Positions 2,573 through 27,206 of a stretch of DNA of 27,580 bases are shown in pieces. Position 1 is the stretch's first letter. Each line of letters begins with the position of its first letter. A program made the translations under genes and the position numbers. The DNA comes from a virus. The notes beneath the pieces are model-generated. The model was not told the origin of the DNA, ran no database searches, and saw only the letters and a program-made list of their open reading frames with translations. Where the stretch lies: the IMG/VR virus record IMGVR_UViG_3300031722_000916, positions 1-27,580 of that record. One strand, written 5' to 3'.

Positions 2573-2964
2573 TGATGCACTGGTGCGAGCCGTACATCGG
2601 CCAAGCCTATTCACGCGGCGATGCCGACTGTGCTCGCCTGGTGTGCAGGGTGCGCGCCGAGGTGTTCGGGCTGCCGGTGCCGACCGATGCCGAAGCCGAG
2701 CGCGCCGCGTCTAGACTGGGCCGTGTGGCGCAGATGGCCGATGGCGTCGAGGCGTTCGGGCTGCGAGTCAATGAGCCGAAAGAAGGCGATGCGGTGCTGA
2801 TGGTCTGCCGTGGGCGGCCGTCGCACATCGGCGTCTATTGCCTTGTCGATTCCGAGCCATGCGTCCTGCACGCAATGGAGAACGCCGGCATGGTCGTCAA
2901 GCATCGCATCCGCGATCTGTCGCAAGTCATGTTATCAGTCGAAGGGTTTTACAGATGGAAATGA
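2572..2964 (+). CDS. NlpC/P60-type tail-tip peptidase (gpK-like)
   Basis: The protein has 130 residues, starting at the ATG that overlaps the preceding stop (a second ATG follows at 2575). It has the NlpC/P60 layout: GDADCARLV with the catalytic cysteine near residue 18, PKEGDAVLMV, then RPSHIGVY with the catalytic histidine near residue 84, and CVLHAME after it. Such phage proteins are tail-associated cell-wall hydrolases of the lambda gpK type. It overlaps the start of the J-like gene by 10 bases. Longer upstream extensions of the frame overlap the DUF1833 gene and were rejected. Confidence 0.85.
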   Translation: MMHWCEPYIGQAYSRGDADCARLVCRVRAEVFGLPVPTDAEAERAASRLGRVAQMADGVEAFGLRVNEPKEGDAVLMVCRGRPSHIGVYCLVDSEPCVLHAMENAGMVVKHRIRDLSQVMLSVEGFYRWK

Positions 2965-5900
2965 CCGCGATCGCGCAAGCCCTGACGCTGACCTATAGCC
3001 CGCATCCGCTGCTGCCCGTTGATCGCGTCGTCATGCCCGCGCAATGGCAGGCCGGGCGCACGGTGCGCGAGTACCTGGTGGCATCCGGCATCGACGCGCA
3101 CCGCGAAATCGTCATCCGCAATAACAACACGCTGCTGACCGTGGCCGAGTGGGACATCATTTGTCCGGTCCCTGGCGACATCGTTAATGTTGAAGGCGTG
3201 GTATCGGGCGGCGGCGGCAAGGGCGGGTCGAACCCGATAGCGATGGTCCTGTCGATAGCGGTGATGGTTATGGCTCCGCAACTCGCCGCCATGATGTACA
3301 CGTCGATGGGCGGAACGATTGCGGCGGGCGCCGCAGGAATGGCGGCGTTCACCGGGTCAATGACCGGCATGGCGATGGTTGCCGGCATATCAATCGCCGG
3401 CAATCTGGTAATAAGCGCTCTATTCCGTCCTTCGCAAGCATCAACGAACGCTGCAGTAACCGGCCAAGGCGCTGCCGAAAGCCCAACATACAGCCTATCA
3501 GGTGGATCGAACAGAATGCGCCCCTATGAGCCGCTTGCGGTCGTCATGGGCAACCATCGCATATTCCCCGACTACGCGGCCAAGCCATACACGGAGTACG
3601 AAGGCGAAGACCAATATCTTTACCAGGCCTTCAATTTTGGCATTGGCGACCTCGAACTATCCGACCTGCGTATCGGCGAAACGCTGCTGTCGTCCTACGC
3701 CGATGTCACGATCACCCGCGCAGTTAATGGCGTCCTACCGGGATTCTTTGGCAACGTAGATACCACGGAGGGCGCTGAATTAACTGCAGCGACCGGATGG
3801 GTCGTTCGCACGTCGGGAACGGATACGACGAAACTCGCCGTCGACATTGGCGTTTCTCTGTTTTACGCGAATGACTCAGGCGGGATTGATGGGAGAACTG
3901 TCAATCTTGCTATTGAGTACGCCGTGGCAGGGTCCGGCGTATGGAAAACATTCTTTCCGACGCTTGGCGAATCAACGTTCTATCACCCGGCAACCCACGA
4001 ATTTACCCTGTGGAACGCCAAGACGAAGCCAATGCGGGTCACGTATGCGCTCGATGTTCCGATCGGTCAATACGACGTTCGGGTAAAGCGCGCAAGCCCT
4101 GACGAGACGGATATCAAAGCAACGTCGACGGCAGCATGGGCTGTGTTGCGATCATACCAAGATGGTATAGCCGACTACAGCAACCAGACCGTAATCGGCA
4201 TCAAGATCAAGGCCAGCGGCCAGCTAAACGGCGCGCTGCAACAACTCTCCGCAATCGCCGACAACAAGGCGAGGGTCTGGACGGGTAGCGCATGGGCGAT
4301 GCAAGCCACCACAAACCCGGCCTGGTGGTATCTCGACTTCATCCGCGGCCGAAAAGACGACGAAGGGCATTTGCTCTATGGCTGCGGGCTGTCTGACGAA
4401 AAGATCGACATCGAGGCAATCAAAGCCTTTGCCGTGTTCTGCGATGCCAACGGACTGACATTCTCCGTTGTGTTGGATAGACAACAGAACGCCGCAGACG
4501 TAATGAACATGATATGTCGCTGCGGTTTCGGCTCGCCTTCGCGGGCCTCTGGCAAACTCGGCGCGGTATGGGATGCGGTCAATCAATCGCCGGTCATGGC
4601 GTTTGGCATGAGCAACATCTGCAAGGGATCGTTCGAGGTCGCGTATGTCACGGAAAACCTGACCGACGAAATCGTCATCAACTACACGAACCGGGATACG
4701 TGGGAGACGGATCAGGTTCGCGTCACCGTTCCCGGTACGATAGGCACGCCGCTACGCCCTAGCACGATTGAACTGATGGGCTGTACCGTCGATGCCATGG
4801 CCGCGAAGTTCGCCCACTACATCGCTGGGCAACAACTCTATCGCCGTCGCATGATTACGTGGGAAACGGATTTCGAGGGCTTCGTGTGTCAGCGCGGCGA
4901 TGTTGTTCTTTTGGCTCACGATCTGACGCAATGGGGTTACTCGGGGCGAATCGTCAGCGTTGACGGGCTGACCATCACGCTTGACCGCACCGTTCCGCGC
5001 TCGGGCGCTGCGGAATACCTGATGATGCAATCGCCCGATGGTGACACGCAGGTTTTCACCATCGCTGCCGGCGCCGAAGATTCCGACACGATCACGCTGC
5101 CGTCCGCCTTCGCGCTGCAAGACGGTTATCCCGCGGTCGATCATAAATGGTATTTCTCGCCGATGGCCACGCCGGGCAAGAAGGTGAAAATCGTATCCGT
5201 CCAGCCGCTGTCGGAATCCCGCGTTCGCCTGATCGCCACCGACGAAGACCCGGCCTACTATGCCTCATGGGACGGCGAATTTACTGCGCCAGCGGTTCAA
5301 ACGCTGCTGACGAATGTAGCGAGCGTCACCCGCTTATCGCTGAAACTACATCAAGTCGTCATCGACAATTTCCAAGTCAATCGCGTCACGGCATCATGGC
5401 GACAGACGGGTGGCACGCAGTATTGCACCGTCCGCGCCTGGTTGGATGGCGTAGCGATTGGCACATGGACGCGGGTTACGGATGCGGCGATAGAGATTGA
5501 TCTATCTGCCAGCGTCGGCACAGTCTCGGTTGAAGTAACCCCGTTCGGTGCGCAGGGCTCGGGTGTATCGGTATCGTCGTCGCTCTCGCTGTCGATGCTG
5601 CCCGCGCCTGCTGCGCCTGTTGTCGTCGCTACCCCGGCACTGTTCGCTATCGATGTTAAATGGCTGTTCGGTGATGCCCGGCAGGATGTGCGCTACACCG
5701 AATTGTGGTTCTCGCAGACCAATAGCCGCGCTGCTGCGTCTCGTGTTACCAGTGAACCTTATCCTGGCGCACGCTATCTGCACATCGGCATAGAGCCGGG
5801 CGAGGGTGGCTACTATTGGGCGCGGGTTATTGATACGCGAGGGAATCCGTCCGAGTGGTCATCGGCGTCGAATGCAGGCGTCTATGCAACGGTCAGCACT

Positions 5901-12810: not shown

Positions 12811-13442
12811 TTATTGATCGCTTTCTTGAATTCAATAACCCATACATACGGATTGGCTGCCCATGAGCCGGGGCCGTTGATCGACTGCCAAAGGTTCGCA
12901 TACCCGAGCCTGTACGACTGACGTCCGATCTCGGATACATCCCACGCAGACAGGCAGCCAGCGCTGACGCAGGCGTTCAGACTTATTCCTTCTGCCATAC
13001 AGTCTTTCTCGCTGATGTCCTGCAGGCGCTCGACGCGGACGCTGACGATTTCGAGCGTGATGCGGCTGGCCCATCGCGGCATGTGGATTGACGGCCGGCA
13101 CTTGAATCCCCATTGCTTGAAGTCAGCGCGATCTTGTTCGTCCCAACCGTACGCGTCGTAATAGTAAGGAGCCCAGGTATCGGCGCCCTCGCGCATCATC
13201 TTCGGCGTGCGTTCGGGGCGTTCCCATCCATTTTCGCGCACCCAAAGGCGATCGCCGGGCTGGCCGTATGGAGAGTTCTCGTAGCTTCCGTTATTCACCT
13301 CGCCGGCGAGTTCTCCAGGGACCAACAGGCAGCCAAAGCCAAGGTCCTTGCGCGGCTTCACATTTCTCCGAGTCTGCGTTTTCTTGCCGGCGAGCAGCGC
13401 GCGCACCATCGGCGCCGAGAATAAAATCGGTCGTTCTTTCAC
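12807..13442 (-). CDS. ASCH/PUA-like phage protein
   Basis: 211 residues from GTG 13442, chosen because AGGAG lies 6-7 bases upstream and GTGA overlaps the methyltransferase stop. Longer starts would reach well into the methyltransferase. Motifs typical of phage ASCH-like proteins are visible: KERPILFSAPMVRALLAGKKTQTRR at the N-terminus, PYGQPGDRLWVRENG in the middle, HMPRWASRITLEIVSVRVERLQDIS further on, and NPYVWVIEFKK at the end. ASCH domains belong to the PUA fold and are thought to bind RNA or modified nucleotides. Adjacency to a DNA methyltransferase suggests a link to modified bases, but that is speculation. Confidence 0.75.
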   Translation of the reverse strand: MKERPILFSAPMVRALLAGKKTQTRRNVKPRKDLGFGCLLVPGELAGEVNNGSYENSPYGQPGDRLWVRENGWERPERTPKMMREGADTWAPYYYDAYGWDEQDRADFKQWGFKCRPSIHMPRWASRITLEIVSVRVERLQDISEKDCMAEGISLNACVSAGCLSAWDVSEIGRQSYRLGYANLWQSINGPGSWAANPYVWVIEFKKAINK

Positions 13443-15241
13443 GCTGCTCTCCTGATAGCCAGTTCGGCAAGGTTGGCAAACACCAGCGCGGACGCCACCG
13501 GTGGACAAACAGAATTTCCAACCATGCGCACCTGTGCTGTCTTCGTGAGGGTTAGGCCTTGCGCCGGGTCGTCGCCGATGATGTAGCGCTCGGGGAATCC
13601 CTGCGCGCGGTAGAGCTCACGAGGGGCAAGCATACGCAGGCCGATGTCGCTGATCTGGTATTGCTGTCCGGCGACTATCACCAGGCCGAAGCGGTCGCGC
13701 GCGGTAATCGTGTGCAGCGGGTCTTCCATTCGAGGGTCTTGGTCGACGCCGTAGTAGGCGGTCAGGAAGGCGCGAACCTCCGCGAAGTGGTTGCCCTGCG
13801 CGCTGATGGTATGCAGCGGCTCAGTGGGCTCTTGCCCGGGGGCGTGCGTTCCGGCGTCGCCGCGCATCTTGACTAGGCTGCTGGTGACAACGCCCGCGAC
13901 TGCTCCGCTTGCTGTGATTGTGTTCAGCGGCTGCTCGACGCTGCGGATGCCATGGCTGAATCGTGGTGCGCCGTTGGCCGACTGTTCGCCGTGGCCCATG
14001 TGCACAAGATTTGCGGCGACGATGCTGTTGTGGTCGACGCTAGTGACGGTCGGCACCGGGTTGCGCAGGTCATCGCCGACGACACCGGTGTAGTGCTTGG
14101 CGATGAACGCAGAAACGAGCGCATGCTTTGAGGATCCGACCAGCGTACCAATCGGCCTCTCAAGGTCGAGCGCCCTTGGCGACTGGCCGTCGCGCTCGCC
14201 GTAGCCGGTCTGGATCATCGTCGGCGCGATCAGCGCGTGGTGACCGCCTTTGGTCTGGGCGCAAATCGTTCGCAAAGGTTCGTCAATGGGCATGCAGCGC
14301 GGGCTTGAGGCGTTGGCGTGCTCGGTAAGCACTGGCGCGACGAGCGCATGATTTCCACCGCCGGCGTGAATCGTCCGGAACGGCTCGGCCATGCTGTAGC
14401 TGCGGTCGCCTCCGGTGCGCCCCTTGTGCTCACCATGAGCCAGCCCGACGATGAACGGATCCGCCGCATTGACCACATAGCGCATGATCCCCTTGGCGAT
14501 CCGGCGCAGAGTGGCATCGGCCAGCGGCCGGGCGCGTTCAAAGATCGACGGGCAGGGCAGGGTGAAGTCGATGCATTCCGCCGCGGTGCGCCACGGTTTC
14601 AGCTTCTTGGCCTTAGCCGTCTTCGGGTCAGCATGGGTCGGCGCCGGCCAGACAATCGACTGACCGTCACAGCGCGCGATCAGAAACAGGCGTTTGCGGA
14701 TCGTCGGTGTGCCGTAATCGCAAGCCTTGAGCACCTTCCATTCGACGACATACCCCTGGCGGCGCAACGCATTGACGAACACGTTGAACTCGCGCCCCTT
14801 CTGCTTGGCGTCCGGCCGCATACTGCCGTCGGCGCCCTCGACCAGCGGCCCCCAGGTAATGAATTCCTCGACGTTCTCGAGCATGATCACGCGCGCCTTG
14901 AGCGCGGCCCAGCGCAGCGTCACCCAGGCCAGCCCGCGAATCTTCTTCTCGACCGGCTTGCCGCCCTTGGCCTTGGAAAAGTGTTTGCAGTCGGGCGACA
15001 GCCAGACGAGGCCGACCGGGCGGCCCTGCGTCACCTCGCGCGGGTCGACGTCCCAAACGCTCTCGCAGTAGTGTTTCGTCTCGGGGTGGTTCGCCTTGTG
15101 CATCGCGACAGCCTCCGGGTCGTGGTTGATCGCGACGTCGACGCGCCGGCCAAGCGCCAGTTCGATTCCTGTGCACGATCCGCCACCGCCAGCGAAATTG
15201 ACGACCAGCATTTCCTTATGGATGTCGAGGTTGAGTTGCAT
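13439..15241 (-). CDS. C5 DNA cytosine methyltransferase (Dcm-like)
   Basis: A 600-residue enzyme adding methyl groups to C5 of cytosine from SAM. Motif I is NFAGGGGSCTGIE (about residues 15-27). Motif IV is SPDCKHFSKAKGG with catalytic Cys85 (PDC rather than the usual PC). Motif VI is ENVEEF (122-127), motif VIII YGTPTIRKRLFLIA (about 176-189), and motifs IX-X are near QVRMVGNSVCPPVASALVFANL at the C-terminus. The target-recognition region holds about seven degenerate repeats (see findings). There is no restriction enzyme beside it apart from the HNH protein three genes upstream. It likely protects phage DNA from host restriction. The start follows the previous stop by two bases. Confidence 0.9.
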   Translation of the reverse strand: MQLNLDIHKEMLVVNFAGGGGSCTGIELALGRRVDVAINHDPEAVAMHKANHPETKHYCESVWDVDPREVTQGRPVGLVWLSPDCKHFSKAKGGKPVEKKIRGLAWVTLRWAALKARVIMLENVEEFITWGPLVEGADGSMRPDAKQKGREFNVFVNALRRQGYVVEWKVLKACDYGTPTIRKRLFLIARCDGQSIVWPAPTHADPKTAKAKKLKPWRTAAECIDFTLPCPSIFERARPLADATLRRIAKGIMRYVVNAADPFIVGLAHGEHKGRTGGDRSYSMAEPFRTIHAGGGNHALVAPVLTEHANASSPRCMPIDEPLRTICAQTKGGHHALIAPTMIQTGYGERDGQSPRALDLERPIGTLVGSSKHALVSAFIAKHYTGVVGDDLRNPVPTVTSVDHNSIVAANLVHMGHGEQSANGAPRFSHGIRSVEQPLNTITASGAVAGVVTSSLVKMRGDAGTHAPGQEPTEPLHTISAQGNHFAEVRAFLTAYYGVDQDPRMEDPLHTITARDRFGLVIVAGQQYQISDIGLRMLAPRELYRAQGFPERYIIGDDPAQGLTLTKTAQVRMVGNSVCPPVASALVFANLAELAIRRAA

Positions 15242-15243
15242 TC

Positions 15244-15561
15244 CTACCGCATCCGGTGCGTGGTGATTGATCCGCCGGGGACCAGGTCGAGGTGCTTGAC
15301 GCCGCTTCCGGTAACCTGGTCGCCGCTGCGCAGCGTGCGCACGGTCTCGCCCTGGTTCTGTGTTGCTTCGGTCTCGGTAAAGAACCCGCTGCCGCTGACC
15401 TTGTTGGCTACGCGCATGAAGTCGACCTCGACCTTGGCGGTATTGACGACGACTTGGGCAGTGTCGTTGATGGCCTTCGCCTTATCGGGCGTGATCGAAC
15501 CGTCTTTCAGGCCGGCGAGGGTGGCGAACAGATGGGCCCTGAGTGCTTTGATGTCAGACAT
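15244..15561 (-). CDS. Small phage protein of unknown function
   Basis: 105 residues from ATG 15561 (MSDIKALRAHLFATLAGL), with GGAG about 11 bases upstream. The frame opens further upstream, but that part overlaps the HNH gene. The first 60 residues are helical (KDGSITPDKAKAINDTAQVVVNTAKVEVDFMRVAN), a pattern common in small early phage proteins. The C-terminus is polar and Gly/Thr-rich. Function unknown. Confidence 0.7.
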   Translation of the reverse strand: MSDIKALRAHLFATLAGLKDGSITPDKAKAINDTAQVVVNTAKVEVDFMRVANKVSGSGFFTETEATQNQGETVRTLRSGDQVTGSGVKHLDLVPGGSITTHRMR

Positions 15562-16204
15562 TGCTTTGTGATCTCCGGTTGATTTGACGACTGACCACAC
15601 CGCGCAGCTGCACCAGCGCGGAGATCTCGGTGCCATATTGGTGATACGAATTGCGCAGCATCAGCGCACTGCGGGTAATGACCTCCAGATTCCCGATCGT
15701 GCAGTTCTGCTTGTTCCCATCTTTGAAAACGAGGGCCATTCCGGCTGGCGGATAGCTGCCGTGATTCTCCTTCCAGACCACTCGGTGCATCTGGGCCCAC
15801 TTGCGCGGCTCCTCAATCTTGATTTCGATGTAGCCATCGACCGTAATGCGCGTGCTTCCGACCGGCCGGTGGTTGGCCACCGATTGACCTGGCTTGAACT
15901 GCGTTTCAGCTGACCTTCCCCCTGCTTTCCAGCCCTTGATTCCCTTGTTGAAAGGGGTTTGTCCGGGCTTGAATTGCGTTTTGACGCCGTGATTTTTTTC
16001 CCGAGACACTGCCGATAGATAGGCATGGCTCTTCTTGATGCCGTGGATATAGGCACAGTTGTTCATGCTGTTGATCGAAATCCCCATTTCATTGGCCAGA
16101 TTGGCCGTCGGAATATCCGGGTAGCGATCGCGCATGATCTGCAGTTCGGACTCTGTCCACCGGTGCTTTGGCTGCTTTCTCGGCGGTGAAAAGGCGCGGG
16201 TCAT
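15554..16204 (-). CDS. HNH endonuclease with N-terminal DNA-binding region
   Basis: The 216-residue protein starts with an ATGA overlap. Residues 15-58 (RWTESELQIMRDRYPDIPTANLANEMGIS...) look like a helix-turn-helix of the kind found in phage HNH proteins. Residues 76-120 contain two copies of TQFKPGQ, an NUMOD-like segment. The HNH core is MHRVVWKENHGSYPPAGMALVF (about 139-160) followed by NCTIGNLEVITRSALM, where H140 and N172 are likely catalytic or structural. It may be a free-standing homing endonuclease or a phage early nuclease. It overlaps the next gene by 8 bases. Confidence 0.85.
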   Translation of the reverse strand: MTRAFSPPRKQPKHRWTESELQIMRDRYPDIPTANLANEMGISINSMNNCAYIHGIKKSHAYLSAVSREKNHGVKTQFKPGQTPFNKGIKGWKAGGRSAETQFKPGQSVANHRPVGSTRITVDGYIEIKIEEPRKWAQMHRVVWKENHGSYPPAGMALVFKDGNKQNCTIGNLEVITRSALMLRNSYHQYGTEISALVQLRGVVSRQINRRSQSNV

Positions 16205-16536: not shown

Positions 16537-17093
16537 AGCGTCGTCTCGCCGGCGATCTCGAACACGAAGCCAAGCGCCGCATCGATCTGTTCATAGAGCT
16601 GCTCAAGCGTTCCATTGTTGACCAGACCGCGGTCGACCGTGATGGCGGACTGTTCGATCTCGCTTTGGTGCGCACTGTGCTCGGTTGTTGCGGCGCCGGG
16701 GCGGATTACGCGCCAGACCTCGCCGCCCAGCCGCTTGACCAGACCCGCCTCGCTCAGAAACCGAACGTCAGTGATTACGACATCCTCGCCGACGTGCGCC
16801 GCGGCGCGCAGCCGGCGCGCCATGATGTCGGTCCAGAGCCCATCGGCGATCATATGGCGGCCCCAGTCCGTGCCCAGCGTCTGCATCAGTCGCCGTGGAC
16901 TGCAGTTGAGCTGGGAAATAACCGATTCCTTGTTTTCCGGCCGAAAGTGGTACGGCTCGAGATCGAGGCCGGCGATCAGCATGGCGCGTATTGGGTCGGC
17001 GAAGGCGGTCGGTGCGAAGCCATGCGCTTTATTCAGATAGGCGCTGACGGTGTCTTTTCCAGACATTGCCGCGCCGGTGAGTCCAATAATCAT
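16533..17093 (-). CDS. Deoxynucleoside monophosphate kinase (P-loop)
   Basis: A 186-residue protein with a clear Walker A (LTGAAMSGKDT, residues 5-15) and a second conserved ITDVRFLSEA segment (about 106-115), the pattern of phage T4/T5-type dNMP kinases. FADPIRAMLIAGL and LMQTLGTDWGRHM are also typical. It would phosphorylate dNMPs (dTMP, dGMP or modified dCMP) towards dNTPs for phage DNA synthesis. It overlaps the RT stop (ATGA), so it is translated from the same message as the DGR. More dNTPs could help reverse transcription, but that is inference. Confidence 0.85.
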   Translation of the reverse strand: MIIGLTGAAMSGKDTVSAYLNKAHGFAPTAFADPIRAMLIAGLDLEPYHFRPENKESVISQLNCSPRRLMQTLGTDWGRHMIADGLWTDIMARRLRAAAHVGEDVVITDVRFLSEAGLVKRLGGEVWRVIRPGAATTEHSAHQSEIEQSAITVDRGLVNNGTLEQLYEQIDAALGFVFEIAGETTL

Positions 17094-18409
17094 TTTTTTC
17101 TCCGGTAGGTTTTGGTTAAATCACCCTTGATGCAGTGGCCGCGATAGCGAAGGGTATTGGCGAGCTGCGCCCGGTCATGATGACTATGCCCCGACTGGCG
17201 AAACAGCCCGAAATAGCTGTTGGCCGTCTCGAAGAGCTTGTCTGATTCGATCTCGCGCACACGGCGCAGTGCATCGTTGAACGTACGCCGCCGGGTGACG
17301 CGCCGCCACGGCTTGATCACCTGGCCAATGAAGTCGATGCCGCGATCAACAGGCTGCAGGATCGTCTTGGTCGGGTTGAGCCTGGCGTGCAGCCGGTTAG
17401 GAAGAAACGTTTCGATCGCTTCGTGCGCGGCATTGAGCCACTGCGGCGACTCGTGGAGTAGAACGAAGTCGTCGACGTAGCGGATGTAGTGCCGCGCGCC
17501 GATCCTGTGCTTGACGAACTGGTCGAGCACGTCGAGATAGACGTTGGCGAAGAACTGGCTTGACAGGTTGCCGATCGGCAGGCCGAGGTTCGCCGGCTGA
17601 CTGGTCAGTCGCTTGTGCGCGGGAACACGCTCAAGCAACGCTGCATTGCCGCGCAGTTCGTAGTTCTGGCGCGGGTCATGAAACAGCACCAGGTCAGCCA
17701 GCCAAAGCCACCATGGCTCGCTGACGCGCTTGGCGACCAGGTCGTGGACGATGTGCTTGTCGATGCTGACAAAGAAGTTCGCCAGGTCGAGCTTGAGATA
17801 CCACGCCGGCCGGGACCAGTTCTGCGAGACGCTGCGGACCTTCGCTTCGAGCCGTTGCGCCGCATAGAGCGTTCCGCGCCCTGGAATGCAGGCGCAACTG
17901 TCGGCGATGAAGGAAGCGTAGAACCGCGGCGAAATCCGGTTGTAGAGCAGGTGGTGCACGATCCGATCGCGGAAGTCTGCAGCCCACACTTCGCGCGGTT
18001 TTGGTCGGGTGATGACAAAGCAGATCGATCGACCGGGGCGATAGGTGCCGCGCTGCAGCTCGTCGAACAGCGCGCCGAGGTTGCGCTCGAGGTTCTGCTC
18101 GAAAGCCAGTGCACTGGCGCTGTTGCGCTTCGACTGGCGACAGTCGAAATACGCTTGCACCAGTTCATGGAAGGAAAAATCAGGTTGGGGTGCTGCGCAT
18201 TGATCTGCGGACGGCTCGGGCGCGGAGCTTGTTGTTGATGTCGTTGTTGTTCTGGTTGCCGTTGTTGAAGTTCTGATACCAGGCGTAGCCAGAATCCGAG
18301 GCGTTGTGTGCTCGCTATCGATGTCGCAACCGCGAAGGCTTTCGCCGATCAGGGTTGAAACTGCGCCAGACCGGTCACGGCGGCTGCCGTCGGTATCTGC
18401 GATGCGCAT
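17090..18409 (-). CDS. Diversity-generating retroelement reverse transcriptase
   Basis: The RT copies TR RNA into cDNA with adenine-directed errors, which then replaces a VR. With the start at ATG 18409 (AAGG about 8 bases upstream) it has 439 residues. Motifs are RSICFVITRPKPREVWAADFRDRIVHH, WYLKLDLANFFVSID (Asp of motif A, about 200-212), the DGR-type GLPIGNLSSQFFANVYL (about 276-292), catalytic YVDDFVLL (311-318), then DRGIDFIGQVIKP. SQ after GLPIGNLS marks DGR and group II-like RTs. The start is uncertain: the frame is open from 18511 and runs through the TR (18203-18304). The conserved RT region begins only at about 18190 (DFSFHELVQAYFDCRQ), and the first usable codon after TR is GTG 18160. 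Confidence 0.92.
   Translation of the reverse strand: MRIADTDGSRRDRSGAVSTLIGESLRGCDIDSEHTTPRILATPGIRTSTTATRTTTTSTTSSAPEPSADQCAAPQPDFSFHELVQAYFDCRQSKRNSASALAFEQNLERNLGALFDELQRGTYRPGRSICFVITRPKPREVWAADFRDRIVHHLLYNRISPRFYASFIADSCACIPGRGTLYAAQRLEAKVRSVSQNWSRPAWYLKLDLANFFVSIDKHIVHDLVAKRVSEPWWLWLADLVLFHDPRQNYELRGNAALLERVPAHKRLTSQPANLGLPIGNLSSQFFANVYLDVLDQFVKHRIGARHYIRYVDDFVLLHESPQWLNAAHEAIETFLPNRLHARLNPTKTILQPVDRGIDFIGQVIKPWRRVTRRRTFNDALRRVREIESDKLFETANSYFGLFRQSGHSHHDRAQLANTLRYRGHCIKGDLTKTYRRKK
18203..18304 (-). repeat. DGR template repeat (TR)
   Basis: A 102-bp copy of the target 3' ends, lying between avd and the conserved part of the RT gene. Read in the target frame it has nine AAC codons and 27 adenines in its diversifiable part. 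Its low-coordinate end (complement of CTGCGGACGGCTCGGGCGCG) is GC-rich and identical in all three copies, as expected for the initiation-of-mutagenic-homing end. The homology ends just before the VR stop codon, so TR is not itself an intact target end. In the RT frame it reads as a Ser/Thr-rich tract. Confidence 0.95.
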
Positions 18410-18477
18410 GTCGGTGGCCTTGTGAGCCAGCGGCGAGACCAGATTAATAAATCGCTCAGTCATGGTGGTCGTGACCA

Positions 18478-18831
18478 TCAGGAAGCGGGCGATGCGGAGG
18501 CGCGGCGCCATCCTGACGCTTGCTTGCCGACGCTGTTGGTGAGCTCGATGGCCTTCGCGTATTGGGCGGTCGAAATCAGCCGCTTGTCCCGTGAAAGCCG
18601 CAACAGCAGTTCGGCGACTTGAAGGCGCTCGATCAACTCGCCGAGGTGTGGTGCTTTATCCCGCGCGCAGTTGGCGCGAAAGATCAGCACGACGATCTCA
18701 ACGCATTCGGCGCTGATCTTGCCGCCGATGCTCTGCTTGAAGTCGCGCGGCATGCTCCTGACCGAGTCCGTAACGGAATCGAGCAGGTCGTAGGCGACCT
18801 TGTAGATCGGGAGTTGATTCGTGAGGGCCAT
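18478..18831 (-). CDS. avd: Avd-like DGR accessory protein (four-helix bundle)
   Basis: The 117-residue, nearly all-helical protein has the pattern of DGR accessory variability determinants: LPIYKVAYDLLDSV, MPRDFKQSIGGKISAECVEIVVLIFRAN, HLGELIERLQVAELLLRLSRDKRLIS, QYAKAIELTNSVGKQASGWRRA. In Bordetella phage BPP-1, Avd forms a basic pentamer that binds the RT and the TR RNA and is needed for mutagenic homing. The gene lies between target 1 and TR-RT, the usual place. It starts 14 bases after the target 1 stop without an obvious Shine-Dalgarno, so it is probably coupled to the target gene. Confidence 0.9.
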   Translation of the reverse strand: MALTNQLPIYKVAYDLLDSVTDSVRSMPRDFKQSIGGKISAECVEIVVLIFRANCARDKAPHLGELIERLQVAELLLRLSRDKRLISTAQYAKAIELTNSVGKQASGWRRASASPAS

Positions 18832-18842
18832 GATAAATAGCT

Positions 18843-18861
18843 AAATTACTGAATAATTAAT
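18843..18861 (-). other. AT-rich hairpin downstream of VR1
   Basis: TAAATTACTGAATAATTAA forms a small stem (AATTA pairing with TAATT around CTGAA/TTCAG) directly after VR1 and spans the stop codon. The same 19 bases follow VR2, but TR lacks them. In BPP-1 a hairpin just after VR is needed in the target DNA for homing, so this may be the equivalent element. Confidence 0.6.
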
Positions 18862-19211
18862 CTGCGGACGGCTCGGGCGCGGAGCTTGCTGCCGACGCCG
18901 TAGCTGAGCTGGCGGCCGTTGTCGAAGTACTGACACCAGGCGGAGCCAGAACCCGAGGCGTAAAGTTCGCCTGACCAGTACCAGTCGCTCTTGAACTGGG
19001 TCTTGCAGTTGGCGTACAGAAGGGCTTGTTCCTGGCGCGTCGGCAGCTCGCCGCCGGCCTTCTGAGCGAACGCCTTGGCCTTCTCCCAGGTGAGCGACTT
19101 GTCGCCCGCCAGCAGGATCAGGTGATGGCTCGGCGCGCCGTCCTCATTGAGGATCAGGCCGGCATAGGTCTCACCGGCGGCGAGTGTGGGAAGGGTGATG
19201 GTTTGTTCCAT
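18846..19211 (-). CDS. DGR variable target protein 1 (DUF1566/C-type-lectin-like)
   Basis: 121 residues from ATG 19211, with GAGG 6 bases upstream; the open frame extends further, but this start matches the paralogue. The pattern is DUF1566/CLec-like: TWEKAKAFAQKAGGELPTRQEQALLYA (41-67), DWYWSGELYAS (76-86), AWCQYF, and RARAVRRL (111-118). The last 37 codons are VR1. Residues 87-108 carry the diversified positions (G87, S90, C93, Y95, D97, R100, L102-S108). CLec folds show variable residues on a ligand-binding face. It has no signal peptide or fibre domain and sits in the early operon, so its ligand is unknown. It is about half identical to target 2 outside the VR. Confidence 0.9.
   Translation of the reverse strand: MEQTITLPTLAAGETYAGLILNEDGAPSHHLILLAGDKSLTWEKAKAFAQKAGGELPTRQEQALLYANCKTQFKSDWYWSGELYASGSGSAWCQYFDNGRQLSYGVGSKLRARAVRRLIIQ
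18860..18961 (-). repeat. DGR variable repeat 1 (VR1)
   Basis: 102 bp aligning without gaps to TR 18203-18304. I count 16 mismatches, all at positions where TR has A on the coding strand. The 3' end (conserved RARAVRR codons) is unchanged. The sequence continues into the target stop codon and the shared hairpin. Confidence 0.95.
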
Positions 19212-20021: not shown

Positions 20022-20040
20022 AAATTACTGAATAATTAAT
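20022..20040 (-). other. AT-rich hairpin downstream of VR2
   Basis: The sequence AAATTACTGAATAATTAAT is the same AT-rich hairpin as after VR1 and includes the stop codon of target 2. It is identical to the VR1 element but absent after TR, so it marks targets rather than template. Confidence 0.6.
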
Positions 20041-20384
20041 CTGCGGACGGCTCGGGCGCGGAGCTCGCCGTAGATGCCGTGGTCGTACTGGTAGCCGTAG
20101 TCGAAGTACTGAGACCAGGCGAAGCCAGAAACCGAGGCGTAGAGCTCGTTCGACCAGTAGCCGTATTCCTCGAATTCATCCTTCGCCGTGGCAAAGAGCA
20201 GCGCCTGCTCGACGCGGTTCGGCAGGTCGCCGCCGATGCTGGCTGCCCACGTCTTGGCGGCTTTCCATGTGGCTTTTGGGCTACCGGGCAAAAGGATGAT
20301 GTGCGTGGCGACGCCGGCGGCATCGACGATCGCGCCGATATAGCGCTCGCCGTTGGCGAGTTCTGGTTTGGTGATGGGTGTCAT
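20025..20384 (-). CDS. DGR variable target protein 2 (DUF1566/C-type-lectin-like)
   Basis: 119 residues from ATG 20384 with AGGGA 7 bases upstream. The frame continues to 20432, but that extension crosses a hairpin. Like target 1 it has TWKAAKTWAASIGGDLPNRVEQALLFA (39-65), GYWSNELYAS (75-84), AWSQYF and RARAVRRL. The last 37 codons are VR2, with variable residues V85, F88, S91, Y93, D95, Y96, Y98, Y100-G103, Y105, G106 and E107. Tyr-rich variable positions are typical of DGR binding surfaces, because AAC changes easily to TAC. It follows the DUF2303 gene after a terminator-like hairpin. Confidence 0.9.
   Translation of the reverse strand: MTPITKPELANGERYIGAIVDAAGVATHIILLPGSPKATWKAAKTWAASIGGDLPNRVEQALLFATAKDEFEEYGYWSNELYASVSGFAWSQYFDYGYQYDHGIYGELRARAVRRLIIQ
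20039..20140 (-). repeat. DGR variable repeat 2 (VR2)
   Basis: 102 bp aligning without gaps to TR. I count 15 mismatches, all at TR adenines on the coding strand. Outcome bases at these sites are mixed (T, G and C), the pattern of random misincorporation rather than drift. Confidence 0.95.
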
Positions 20385-24739: not shown

Positions 24740-25305
24740 GCACCCGAAGGTCGCCGGCCTATGCTCGCGAGCTATCCGCCCGGCGCCAGAATGGCGAGCG
24801 GATCGGCCTGCTGATCGTTTCCGTTCATGACTGGCAGGCGGGAAGATGGTTTGACGGCCGGCCGGAAGTGGCGCGCATCGTCATCCCCGAAGACCAGCCG
24901 CTGAACGCCGTTCGTTTCGACTGCGCCCATGCGCTGGATGTGTTGTTGTGCGGCGCCGGGACGACCCCAGATTTCAACACCGTAGCCGACGAGCTGGCCA
25001 AGGCGGAGCCCGCTTCGGTGTGGGCCGAATATGTGGATGGTATTTGGCGCATGGAACCGTCCTCCAGCGGCTGGCTGGCGGTCGATGGGCCGTTCCCGGT
25101 GCAGTGGCTGGCCCGTGCGATTCAGACGAATCGTTCGTGGTGCCTGATGCAGGGCAAGGGGATCTATGGCCGCCCGGTATTCGCTGCAGCGCGCTTGGCG
25201 GCCTATACGGAATTGTTCGGTGACGAAGCGCCCTCGGTGATGCGCGACGTGTTCCAGGCGCGCACCAGCGACTTGCTCAGTGTGCTGATCGCGAAGGCGG
25301 CTTGA
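24736..25305 (+). CDS. Phage replication-region protein of unknown function
   Basis: 189 residues from ATG 24736 (overlap with previous stop). Early residues RLSARRQ..GERIGLLIVSVHDWQAGRWF (about 9-36) include a hydrophobic beta strand and aromatic motif. The second half is helical (LAAYTELFGDEAPSVMRDVFQAR). It lies directly upstream of the VapE helicase (TGATG overlap), so it may be a helicase loader or primase-related partner, but no motif proves this. Confidence 0.6.
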   Translation: MSTRRSPAYARELSARRQNGERIGLLIVSVHDWQAGRWFDGRPEVARIVIPEDQPLNAVRFDCAHALDVLLCGAGTTPDFNTVADELAKAEPASVWAEYVDGIWRMEPSSSGWLAVDGPFPVQWLARAIQTNRSWCLMQGKGIYGRPVFAAARLAAYTELFGDEAPSVMRDVFQARTSDLLSVLIAKAA

Positions 25306-26723
25306 TGGCAAACGACAAGACCATGGACAACGCGCTCGCCTCGGCGCAGGCGGCGGCTTTCCAGCAGATGCAGTGGCAGGCGATGTTCAAGAAAACGGAC
25401 AAGGGCACAATCTTGCCCACGCTCTTCAATTCGCTGCTCGTCTTTGATAACGACGCAGCCTGGCGCGATGTGATCGCCTTCGATGAGTTTGCGTATCGCA
25501 TCGTCAAGCGCAAGACGCCGCCAACGCGCGTGGTTCGAATCGGCGAGTGGTCGGACCTCGATGACGTCCAGGCGCTGGTCTATATCGCCGAGGAGCATGG
25601 CTTTGAGCCGAAGAAAACGACGGTTATGGATGCCGTCCTCTCGGCAGCGCATCAAAACGCCTTCCATCCGGTACGTGAGTGGCTGCGTTCCCTTTCCTGG
25701 GATGGAACGAAACGGCTTTCATCGTTTGCCGGCCAGTATCTTGGCGGCATTTCTACCGCTGGCTCAGCTTCGCTGGAAGACGCGGAACGCATCGAACTCG
25801 GGATCTATCTCAAACTGCTCTCCGTTAAATGGCTGGTTGGGGCTGTGGCACGCATCATGCAGCCCGGGTGCAAGCTCGATACCATGCCAGTGCTCGAAGG
25901 CGGGCAGGGCGCGTTCAAATCAACGGCGCTGCGCGTGCTATTCGGGTCGGATTGGTTTTCAGATTCGAAGCTGGTGATCGGCGACAAAGATGCGCTGGCC
26001 AATATGCAAGGGAAGTGGTGCAGCGAGATGGCCGAAATGGACAGCCATCGCAAGGCCGACGATACCGCGTTCAAGCAGTTCCTGTCGACGCAGACCGATC
26101 GCGTGCGCTGGCACTACGGACGGCGGGCCGAGGATGTGCCGCGGCAGAGTGTTTTCGTCGGCACCACGAACATGGATGAGTACGGCAAGGACGAAACCGG
26201 TATGCGCCGCGTCTGGCCGTTCGCTGTGGGAAAGATCGATATCGCGGCCATCAAGGCGGACCGCGATCAGCTCTGGGCCGAAGCGGTTCATCTGTACGAT
26301 CGAGACGTGCCGTGGTGGGTTTCCGGGGAAAAGATCGTTCTCGACCCTGCCGCCAGCCCAAGCCTTTCAAAACTATTCAGCGCGCCGGTGACTGAGCGCG
26401 ACCTGTTCGATCGCCAGGCGGAAGACCGCATGCAGATCGATGCCTGGATCTATCCGATTGTCGAGTGGTGGGAGCAGAACAATGGCTTGCCCTACATTAC
26501 GACCGCGCAAATCCTGGGGAGCGCCCTAAGCCTGGAAAAGGCGAGATGGAGCAAACCCGAACAGATGCGCGTGGCCGCAATTTTGAAGCGTCTCGGATTC
26601 GTTCGTCGCAAGGTGGGACCAAGAACGGCAAGGATTTGGGGATTTGTTCCGAAGGACGTAGCAAATGCTGTGCCATGCGCCAGCCAAAACTCGATGGAGA
26701 GTGACGATGACCTGCCCATTTGA
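25305..26723 (+). CDS. VapE-family (virulence-associated E) P-loop helicase/ATPase
   Basis: The 472-residue protein starts at ATG 25305. The VapE domain (PF05272) is clear: the Walker A-type loop LEGGQGAFKSTALRVLFG (about 197-214), GKWCSEMAEMD (Walker B region, about 237-247), the QSVFVGTTNMDEY sensor segment, and the conserved GMRRVWPFAVGKID with arginine residues. The N-terminal half includes VREWLRSLSWDGTKRL and KWLVGAVARIMQPGCKL, usual in these proteins. VapE proteins are the replicative helicases of many temperate phages and islands. No primase domain or separate primase gene is visible. A 180-bp palindromic region follows the stop. Confidence 0.9.
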   Translation: MANDKTMDNALASAQAAAFQQMQWQAMFKKTDKGTILPTLFNSLLVFDNDAAWRDVIAFDEFAYRIVKRKTPPTRVVRIGEWSDLDDVQALVYIAEEHGFEPKKTTVMDAVLSAAHQNAFHPVREWLRSLSWDGTKRLSSFAGQYLGGISTAGSASLEDAERIELGIYLKLLSVKWLVGAVARIMQPGCKLDTMPVLEGGQGAFKSTALRVLFGSDWFSDSKLVIGDKDALANMQGKWCSEMAEMDSHRKADDTAFKQFLSTQTDRVRWHYGRRAEDVPRQSVFVGTTNMDEYGKDETGMRRVWPFAVGKIDIAAIKADRDQLWAEAVHLYDRDVPWWVSGEKIVLDPAASPSLSKLFSAPVTERDLFDRQAEDRMQIDAWIYPIVEWWEQNNGLPYITTAQILGSALSLEKARWSKPEQMRVAAILKRLGFVRRKVGPRTARIWGFVPKDVANAVPCASQNSMESDDDLPI

Positions 26724-26771
26724 CCCTGCGCGCAGTCAAAATCGCCTCGAATCGTGTCCGGATGGGGCTTT

Positions 26772-26952
26772 GGTGGTGCCACAGGTAGGACGCACGGAAG
26801 CACTGCAAAGACTGGATGTGTCCCCCCGTCCCACCTGCTTTGCGCGCTCGCGGGTGCGCGTATACACACGCACACACCTGAGGGTAGAGGTAGGACGGTG
26901 GGACACATCAAGCAACGCCAACGGTTTGCCGTGTCCTACCTGTGGCACCACC
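26772..26952. repeat. 180-bp concentric imperfect inverted repeat with five GGTRGGAC iterons
   Basis: The outer arms (26772-26791 and 26933-26952) are a perfect 20-bp inverted pair. A 22-bp pair lies inside (26815-26836 and 26888-26909, 20 of 22 matching). A near-palindrome sits at the centre (26854-26873). All three are centred within two bases of 26862. GGTRGGAC occurs at 26784, 26889 and 26897 (+), and inverted at 26828 and 26933. It lies just after vapE and before the next gene, and is a candidate replication origin or large regulatory hairpin. Confidence 0.8.
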
Positions 26953-26972
26953 TTAAAAATAGTGGGGCCACA

Positions 26973-27206
26973 GTGAAGGCGCTCTCGATGCGCGATCAGA
27001 TGCCGGTATCGACCGCCTTTGTTGATGCCTTTCGGGCCGTCTTTGGCGCATCCGAAATCAATCAAAGCATCAAGGCCTCACTGACTGGCCTGCCCACGTT
27101 TTACGCCTCGGAGAATGGTCATACCATCGGCACGCCGCAGCATGCCCCAGGGTTTAGCGTTAGTGGCAGCGCGCTCATGATTCGGCCGGGAAAGGTAGGC
27201 CGATGA
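26973..27206 (+). CDS. Small phage protein, unknown function
   Basis: 77 residues from GTG 26973 (or ATG 26988 with GAAGG before it). An upstream frame exists, but it crosses the inverted repeat. The conserved-looking segment is AFVDAFRAVFGASEINQSIKASLTGLPTFYASENGHTIGT, which I recall from small proteins near phage replication or morphogenesis genes. The stop overlaps the next start by ATGA. Confidence 0.5.
   Translation: MKALSMRDQMPVSTAFVDAFRAVFGASEINQSIKASLTGLPTFYASENGHTIGTPQHAPGFSVSGSALMIRPGKVGR

Follow-up and report, generated by a model that had tools for sequence, protein, structure and literature searches.

The Rep helicases of staphylococcal pathogenicity islands (SaPIs) recognise, through their C-terminal domain, iterons that immediately follow the gene encoding them (PMC7581432). 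In the origins of Gram-negative PICIs two sets of iterons surround an AT-rich region, and the rep-ori segments replicate autonomously (PMC6092414). In open-access text we found no paper joining VapE with iterons or an origin, and none combining Z-DNA or alternating tracts, iterons and phage in this context. In this study we analyse a large inverted repeat that follows a VapE helicase gene in a 27.6 kb stretch of viral DNA (referred to as the window). The window is a fragment of a temperate, siphovirus-like phage and encodes a tape measure protein, tail fibre J, an integrase and a CII-like regulator. As in SaPIs and PICIs, we found a VapE/PriRep-type helicase, a putative origin directly downstream of it and two iteron sets flanking a core. 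We consider it probable, at about 0.86, that the element serves as a rep-ori replication origin of the SaPI/PICI type in a temperate phage. As the core is not AT-rich, we place it as a variant and not as a typical member of that group. The features on which this reading is built are the following:

25302 to 26723, plus strand: vapE, predicted initiator helicase (PF05272; Pfam 4.4e-68)
26772 to 26952, no strand: candidate replication origin, a concentric inverted repeat between vapE and the next gene, called from the dyad, the iterons and the layout in relatives
26784 to 26791, plus strand: left outer iteron GGTAGGAC, inside the perfect 20-nt arm 26772-26791
26820 to 26827, minus strand: left tandem iteron 1, degenerate, GGGGGGAC
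26828 to 26835, minus strand: left tandem iteron 2, GGTGGGAC
26836 to 26888, no strand: core separating the two tandem pairs, 53 nt, 38% AT
26854 to 26877, no strand: alternating purine-pyrimidine tract of 24 nt, GTGCGCGTATACACACGCACACAC, Z-DNA-prone
26889 to 26896, plus strand: right tandem iteron 1, GGTAGGAC
26897 to 26904, plus strand: right tandem iteron 2, GGTGGGAC
26933 to 26940, minus strand: right outer iteron GGTAGGAC, inside the perfect 20-nt arm 26933-26952
26973 to 27206, plus strand: next gene, a short conserved phage protein, its start placed after the repeat as in relatives

A preliminary description of this DNA had noted three nested inverted pairs sharing one centre near 26862. 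For the outer arms (26772-26791 and 26933-26952, complementary at 20/20 positions) and the middle arms (26812-26836 and 26888-26912, 88% complementarity over 25 nt) this is exact, both being centred at 26862.0; the small inner palindrome around GTATAC (26854-26873) lies about 1.5 nt off. When every possible centre of the window was scored over ±95 nt, 26862.0 came out as the best dyad centre (52/95 paired, mean 24.5, z 6.0), the runner-up reaching z 4.3. The similar peptides that had been noticed on both strands are a by-product of this symmetry. All five GGTRGGAC copies reported before are exact and within the element (26784+, 26828-, 26889+, 26897+, 26933-), and a near copy with one mismatch (26820-) fills the left tandem pair. 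A sixth copy is found within vapE, at 26612. In total the motif occurs 8 times in 27.6 kb against 0.96 expected, a number reached in no shuffle. The iterons start 61 nt past the vapE stop. Read from left to right, a plus-facing unit at 26784 is followed at a distance of 36 by two minus-facing units (26820, 26828), the core (26836-26888), two plus-facing units (26889, 26897) and, again at 36, a minus-facing unit at 26933.

An open reading frame (26754-27206) runs through the repeat, and we therefore considered the element as coding sequence. This candidate was rejected: a single frame is not kept among relatives, being broken in L003, and what is conserved is the DNA sequence itself. Relatives start the next gene beyond the repeat, the equivalent in the window being a GTG at 26973, and because of this placement we regard the element as non-coding.

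By sequence and by fold, VapE is a SaPI-Rep-like helicase and a structural relative of the self-loading initiator PriRep1 of SaPI1. It matches the DNA helicase family of PHROG (1.5e-90) and, in the PDB, entry 7pds (1.6e-84), the record of which reads ‘PriRep1’ and ‘Similar to D. nodosus vapE’ and which we take to be the SaPI1 protein. The AlphaFold model (pLDDT 91.7) superposes on 7pds over residues 20-454 with a VIA-align Z of 33.4, compared to 13.7 for the second-best structure. No primase domain was detected in the VapE reading frame of the window with Pfam or PHROG. In the predicted model, residues ~383-454 (roughly the last 80 residues) form an H-H-H-beta-beta unit resembling a winged helix. 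Searched alone against the PDB, this C-terminal domain matched for the most part DNA-binding proteins of the winged-helix type, along with PriRep1, every match being weak and none below E 0.001, so that the winged-helix assignment rests on fold class. A Zalpha (Z-DNA-binding) domain was among these weak matches; we do not count it as evidence.

The preliminary description had read the position after the replicative helicase as a hint of an origin. This reading is supported by the other phages, many of which show the same nested layout following vapE. Two scans using the VapE protein as the only query yielded 160 loci, found in viral contigs as well as bacterial genomes; most come from Proteobacteria and a few from other groups (Myxococcota, Terriglobia). 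De novo repeat clusters were present within 0-1 kb 3' of vapE in 94/157 loci; the control stretches gave 1/149 upstream, 0/157 inside vapE and 2/145 at 1-2 kb downstream. With an alternative scoring, 115/161 loci exceeded the 99th percentile of the coding control. Depending on the scoring, about a quarter to two fifths of the VapE-anchored loci stay under the threshold for de novo repeats. In the reverse direction, a search with the 16-bp double iteron alone recovered at least 119 viral loci, 98 of which encode VapE on the fetched stretch. Since many of the double-iteron loci are near-identical Pseudomonas prophages, the later statistics were carried out on a dereplicated set of 40 loci with C-terminal domains less than 85% identical. 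When phage records were searched at the DNA level with the element as query, no match was obtained, probably since rapid divergence of the iterons and their flanks leaves too little similarity over the element as a whole.

Clusters of GGTRGGAC were also seen near genes other than vapE: at 7385-7602 in L023 beside a weak DUF3987 match, at 3129-3458 in L088 beside an AAA_25 protein, and at 885-1256 in L008 beside a weak small-terminase match, the last on a contig that is possibly cut before vapE. GGTRGGAC may serve as an iteron for other initiators too.

In the window the order at the element is VapE helicase, element, short gene and start of a minor tail protein. The same gene order recurs in the Pseudomonas phages U5 and Haddon, where CII-like and DksA-like genes precede VapE and a stretch with little or no annotation separates it from the minor tail and then the small terminase genes; in U5 this stretch contains iterons of the same type. 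A site between early and late genes might also be where terminase begins packaging (pac or cos), as had been suggested before, and the small terminase subunit is indeed the next gene in some relatives (L276), and the motif cluster of L008 adjoins a weak match to it. However, the next gene is inconstant (minor tail, Q-like antiterminator, unknown or small terminase), the small terminase is located further on in U5 and Haddon, and the end of the Haddon record falls not at the repeat but between the genes for terminase and minor tail. The constant neighbour is vapE. We think that a packaging function is very unlikely.

Elsewhere in the window two further gene groups were noted. One is a diversity-generating retroelement, in which a single template repeat is accompanied by two variable ones:

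17090 to 18511, minus strand: RT gene (PHROG 1423, 2.4e-121)
18199 to 18304, 18856 to 18961 and 20035 to 20140, all minus strand: retroelement repeats, template and variable
18302 to 18494, minus strand: RT-15 RNA (RF03018; Rfam, 166 bits)

The differences of the variable repeats fall at template A positions in 16/17 and 15/16 cases. From the position of the RT-15 RNA, which directly adjoins the template repeat, RT-15 seems to be a template-region RNA of a retroelement of this diversity-generating type. The other group consists of a long DNA cytosine methyltransferase gene (13439-15241, minus strand) beside a reading frame (15554-16204, minus strand) with weak resemblance to homing endonucleases.

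Across the 40 dereplicated loci the iterons share a common geometry. Tandem units are spaced by 8 or 9 bp in 76/80 cases, and between the two unit groups, which point away from each other, lies a core of 45-116 nt (median 93). The next outward opposed unit is found at 32-37 bp for 34/59 half-sites, against 3.2 expected under a uniform spread. Because the same geometry recurs across loci, the concentric picture represents a conserved plan that happens to be unusually symmetric in the window. Could the symmetry instead reflect an RNA, that is, a regulatory or structural hairpin in the transcript of vapE and the late genes, as was also proposed at the outset? The single strand of the element folds much more stably than shuffles do (z -8.6 as RNA, z -7.6 as DNA), as such a hairpin would. 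However, this stability follows from inverted DNA sites as well. The numbers of left and right units are unequal in most loci (2 versus 3 and so on), and the similarity between units paired across the dyad does not significantly exceed that between unpaired ones (2.40 versus 2.69 mismatches, p 0.14). The element is without an Rfam match, and the region is without a terminator-like site, in agreement with the earlier remark that this is not a simple terminator. A hairpin function therefore seems very unlikely to us.

The iteron sequence itself varies by lineage: besides GGTRGGAC we found TTGGGACA, GGTTGGGC, GGTAGGAAC, GGTGTGGCC and others. Within the set of 40, loci with more identical VapE C-terminal domains also have more similar iterons when the helicase domain is controlled for (partial Mantel r 0.35, p 0.0005, a test that removes shared ancestry only in part), and iteron similarity does not follow the helicase domain when the C-terminal domain is controlled for (r -0.13, p 0.94). 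These statistics support the view that the C-terminal domain of VapE might read the iterons. Such covariation with a protein domain speaks further against an RNA hairpin. It also bears on the possibility that the iterons are the target of some other phage regulator, an activator of late genes or a repressor, and govern transcription or copy number without marking a start site. The location at the junction of early and late genes and the Q-like gene that comes next in some relatives would suit such a regulator. However, the Q-like gene is not constant, a promoter-like site was not found in the element region, and the iterons track the VapE C-terminal domain. We judge a role of this kind to be highly improbable.

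A further putative VapE origin, at ~2917-3320 of a Polyangiaceae MAG (L276), holds 12 GTAGGAAC iterons with a perfect DnaA-box-like TGTGGATAA beside them.

For the core we considered an AT-rich melting region and rejected it, as AT content is raised neither in the window (38% versus 41% locally) nor significantly in the group (mean 45% versus 43%, p 0.13). What the core does contain is the 24-nt alternating purine-pyrimidine run, the longest in the 27.6 kb window, where the next one measures 11. Tracts of this type are prone to form Z-DNA under negative supercoiling. Alternating runs in the cores of the group have a mean length of 16.4 nt compared to 6.8 in shuffles (p 5e-8), and in 27/39 loci the longest such run of the fetched locus falls into the core (0.5 expected). 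The tract is absent from some alphaproteobacterial loci and from the Staphylococcus phage; it is thus a feature of a large subset and not of all VapE origins. Possibly, and we put this forward tentatively and with less than even odds, the origins of proteobacterial VapE phages are built on a plan of their own: between two VapE rings, kept at fixed positions by iterons in the arrangement >, ~34, <<, core, >>, ~34, <, it would be an alternating, Z-DNA-prone tract and no AT-rich stretch that becomes opened or twisted.

If the element is a rep-ori origin, the phage's own VapE would be the initiator, its predicted winged-helix C-terminal domain binding the 8-bp GGTRGGAC iterons. As suggested by the symmetry and by the work on SaPIs, two VapE rings might assemble head-to-head on the two half-sites. 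The rings could then open the core with its 24-nt alternating tract, and two forks would start, making replication bidirectional and independent of DnaA. We also considered a DnaA-dependent origin and rejected it: the window element has no DnaA boxes, and DnaA-like boxes occur in just 3/40 loci. With a self-loading helicase this rarity is to be expected. A GC-skew switch had been named in the preliminary description as a further sign of an origin. A shift at the element is indeed seen in 8-10 phages, where the skew is near +0.12 towards vapE and drops to near +0.02 past the iterons. The direction of this change is opposite to that of a simple bidirectional origin with G-rich leading strands, and gene content confounds it, so that the skew gives no support. 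In L292-L299, L128 and L129 the skew is about +0.1 on the vapE side even with reversed genes and about 0 past the iterons.

As a sequence signature, the double iteron after vapE could locate the origin in many temperate phages and prophages, and it would be useful where the origin stretch has no annotated gene. The roughly 40 natural pairs of initiator and iteron offer material for studying how the VapE C-terminal domain reads DNA. The element also raises a question about origin opening: why does a Z-DNA-prone tract occupy the core in place of an AT-rich one?

Among known systems, phage P4 with its alpha protein and ori-crr likewise combines iterons with an initiator helicase bearing a C-terminal DNA-binding domain; its helicase belongs to a different family, and it uses two separate cis sites. 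In Staphylococcus phage JS02 (L290) a VapE homologue is directly followed by inverted TGATGCAACA repeats at 4332-4676, which are likely an origin of the same general type, although the units are spaced by 11-12 bp in AT-rich surroundings and without an alternating tract. The Gram-negative PICI origins (EcCICFT073 and others) have the same succession of rep gene and ori (PMC6092414); judged from their published description, they are set apart by belonging to satellites and not to phages, by core composition and by iteron sequence. The SaPI rep-ori (SaPI1 PriRep1, SaPIbov1 Rep) shares the VapE-type self-loading helicase, the iterons directly 3' of its gene and, putatively, the C-terminal domain as their reader (PMC7581432). 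In contrast to it, the loci described here belong to autonomous phages of Proteobacteria, with tandem 8-9 bp units and opposed outliers at a fixed distance, a core that is alternating purine-pyrimidine and not AT-rich, and, in the window, a VapE in which a primase domain went undetected.
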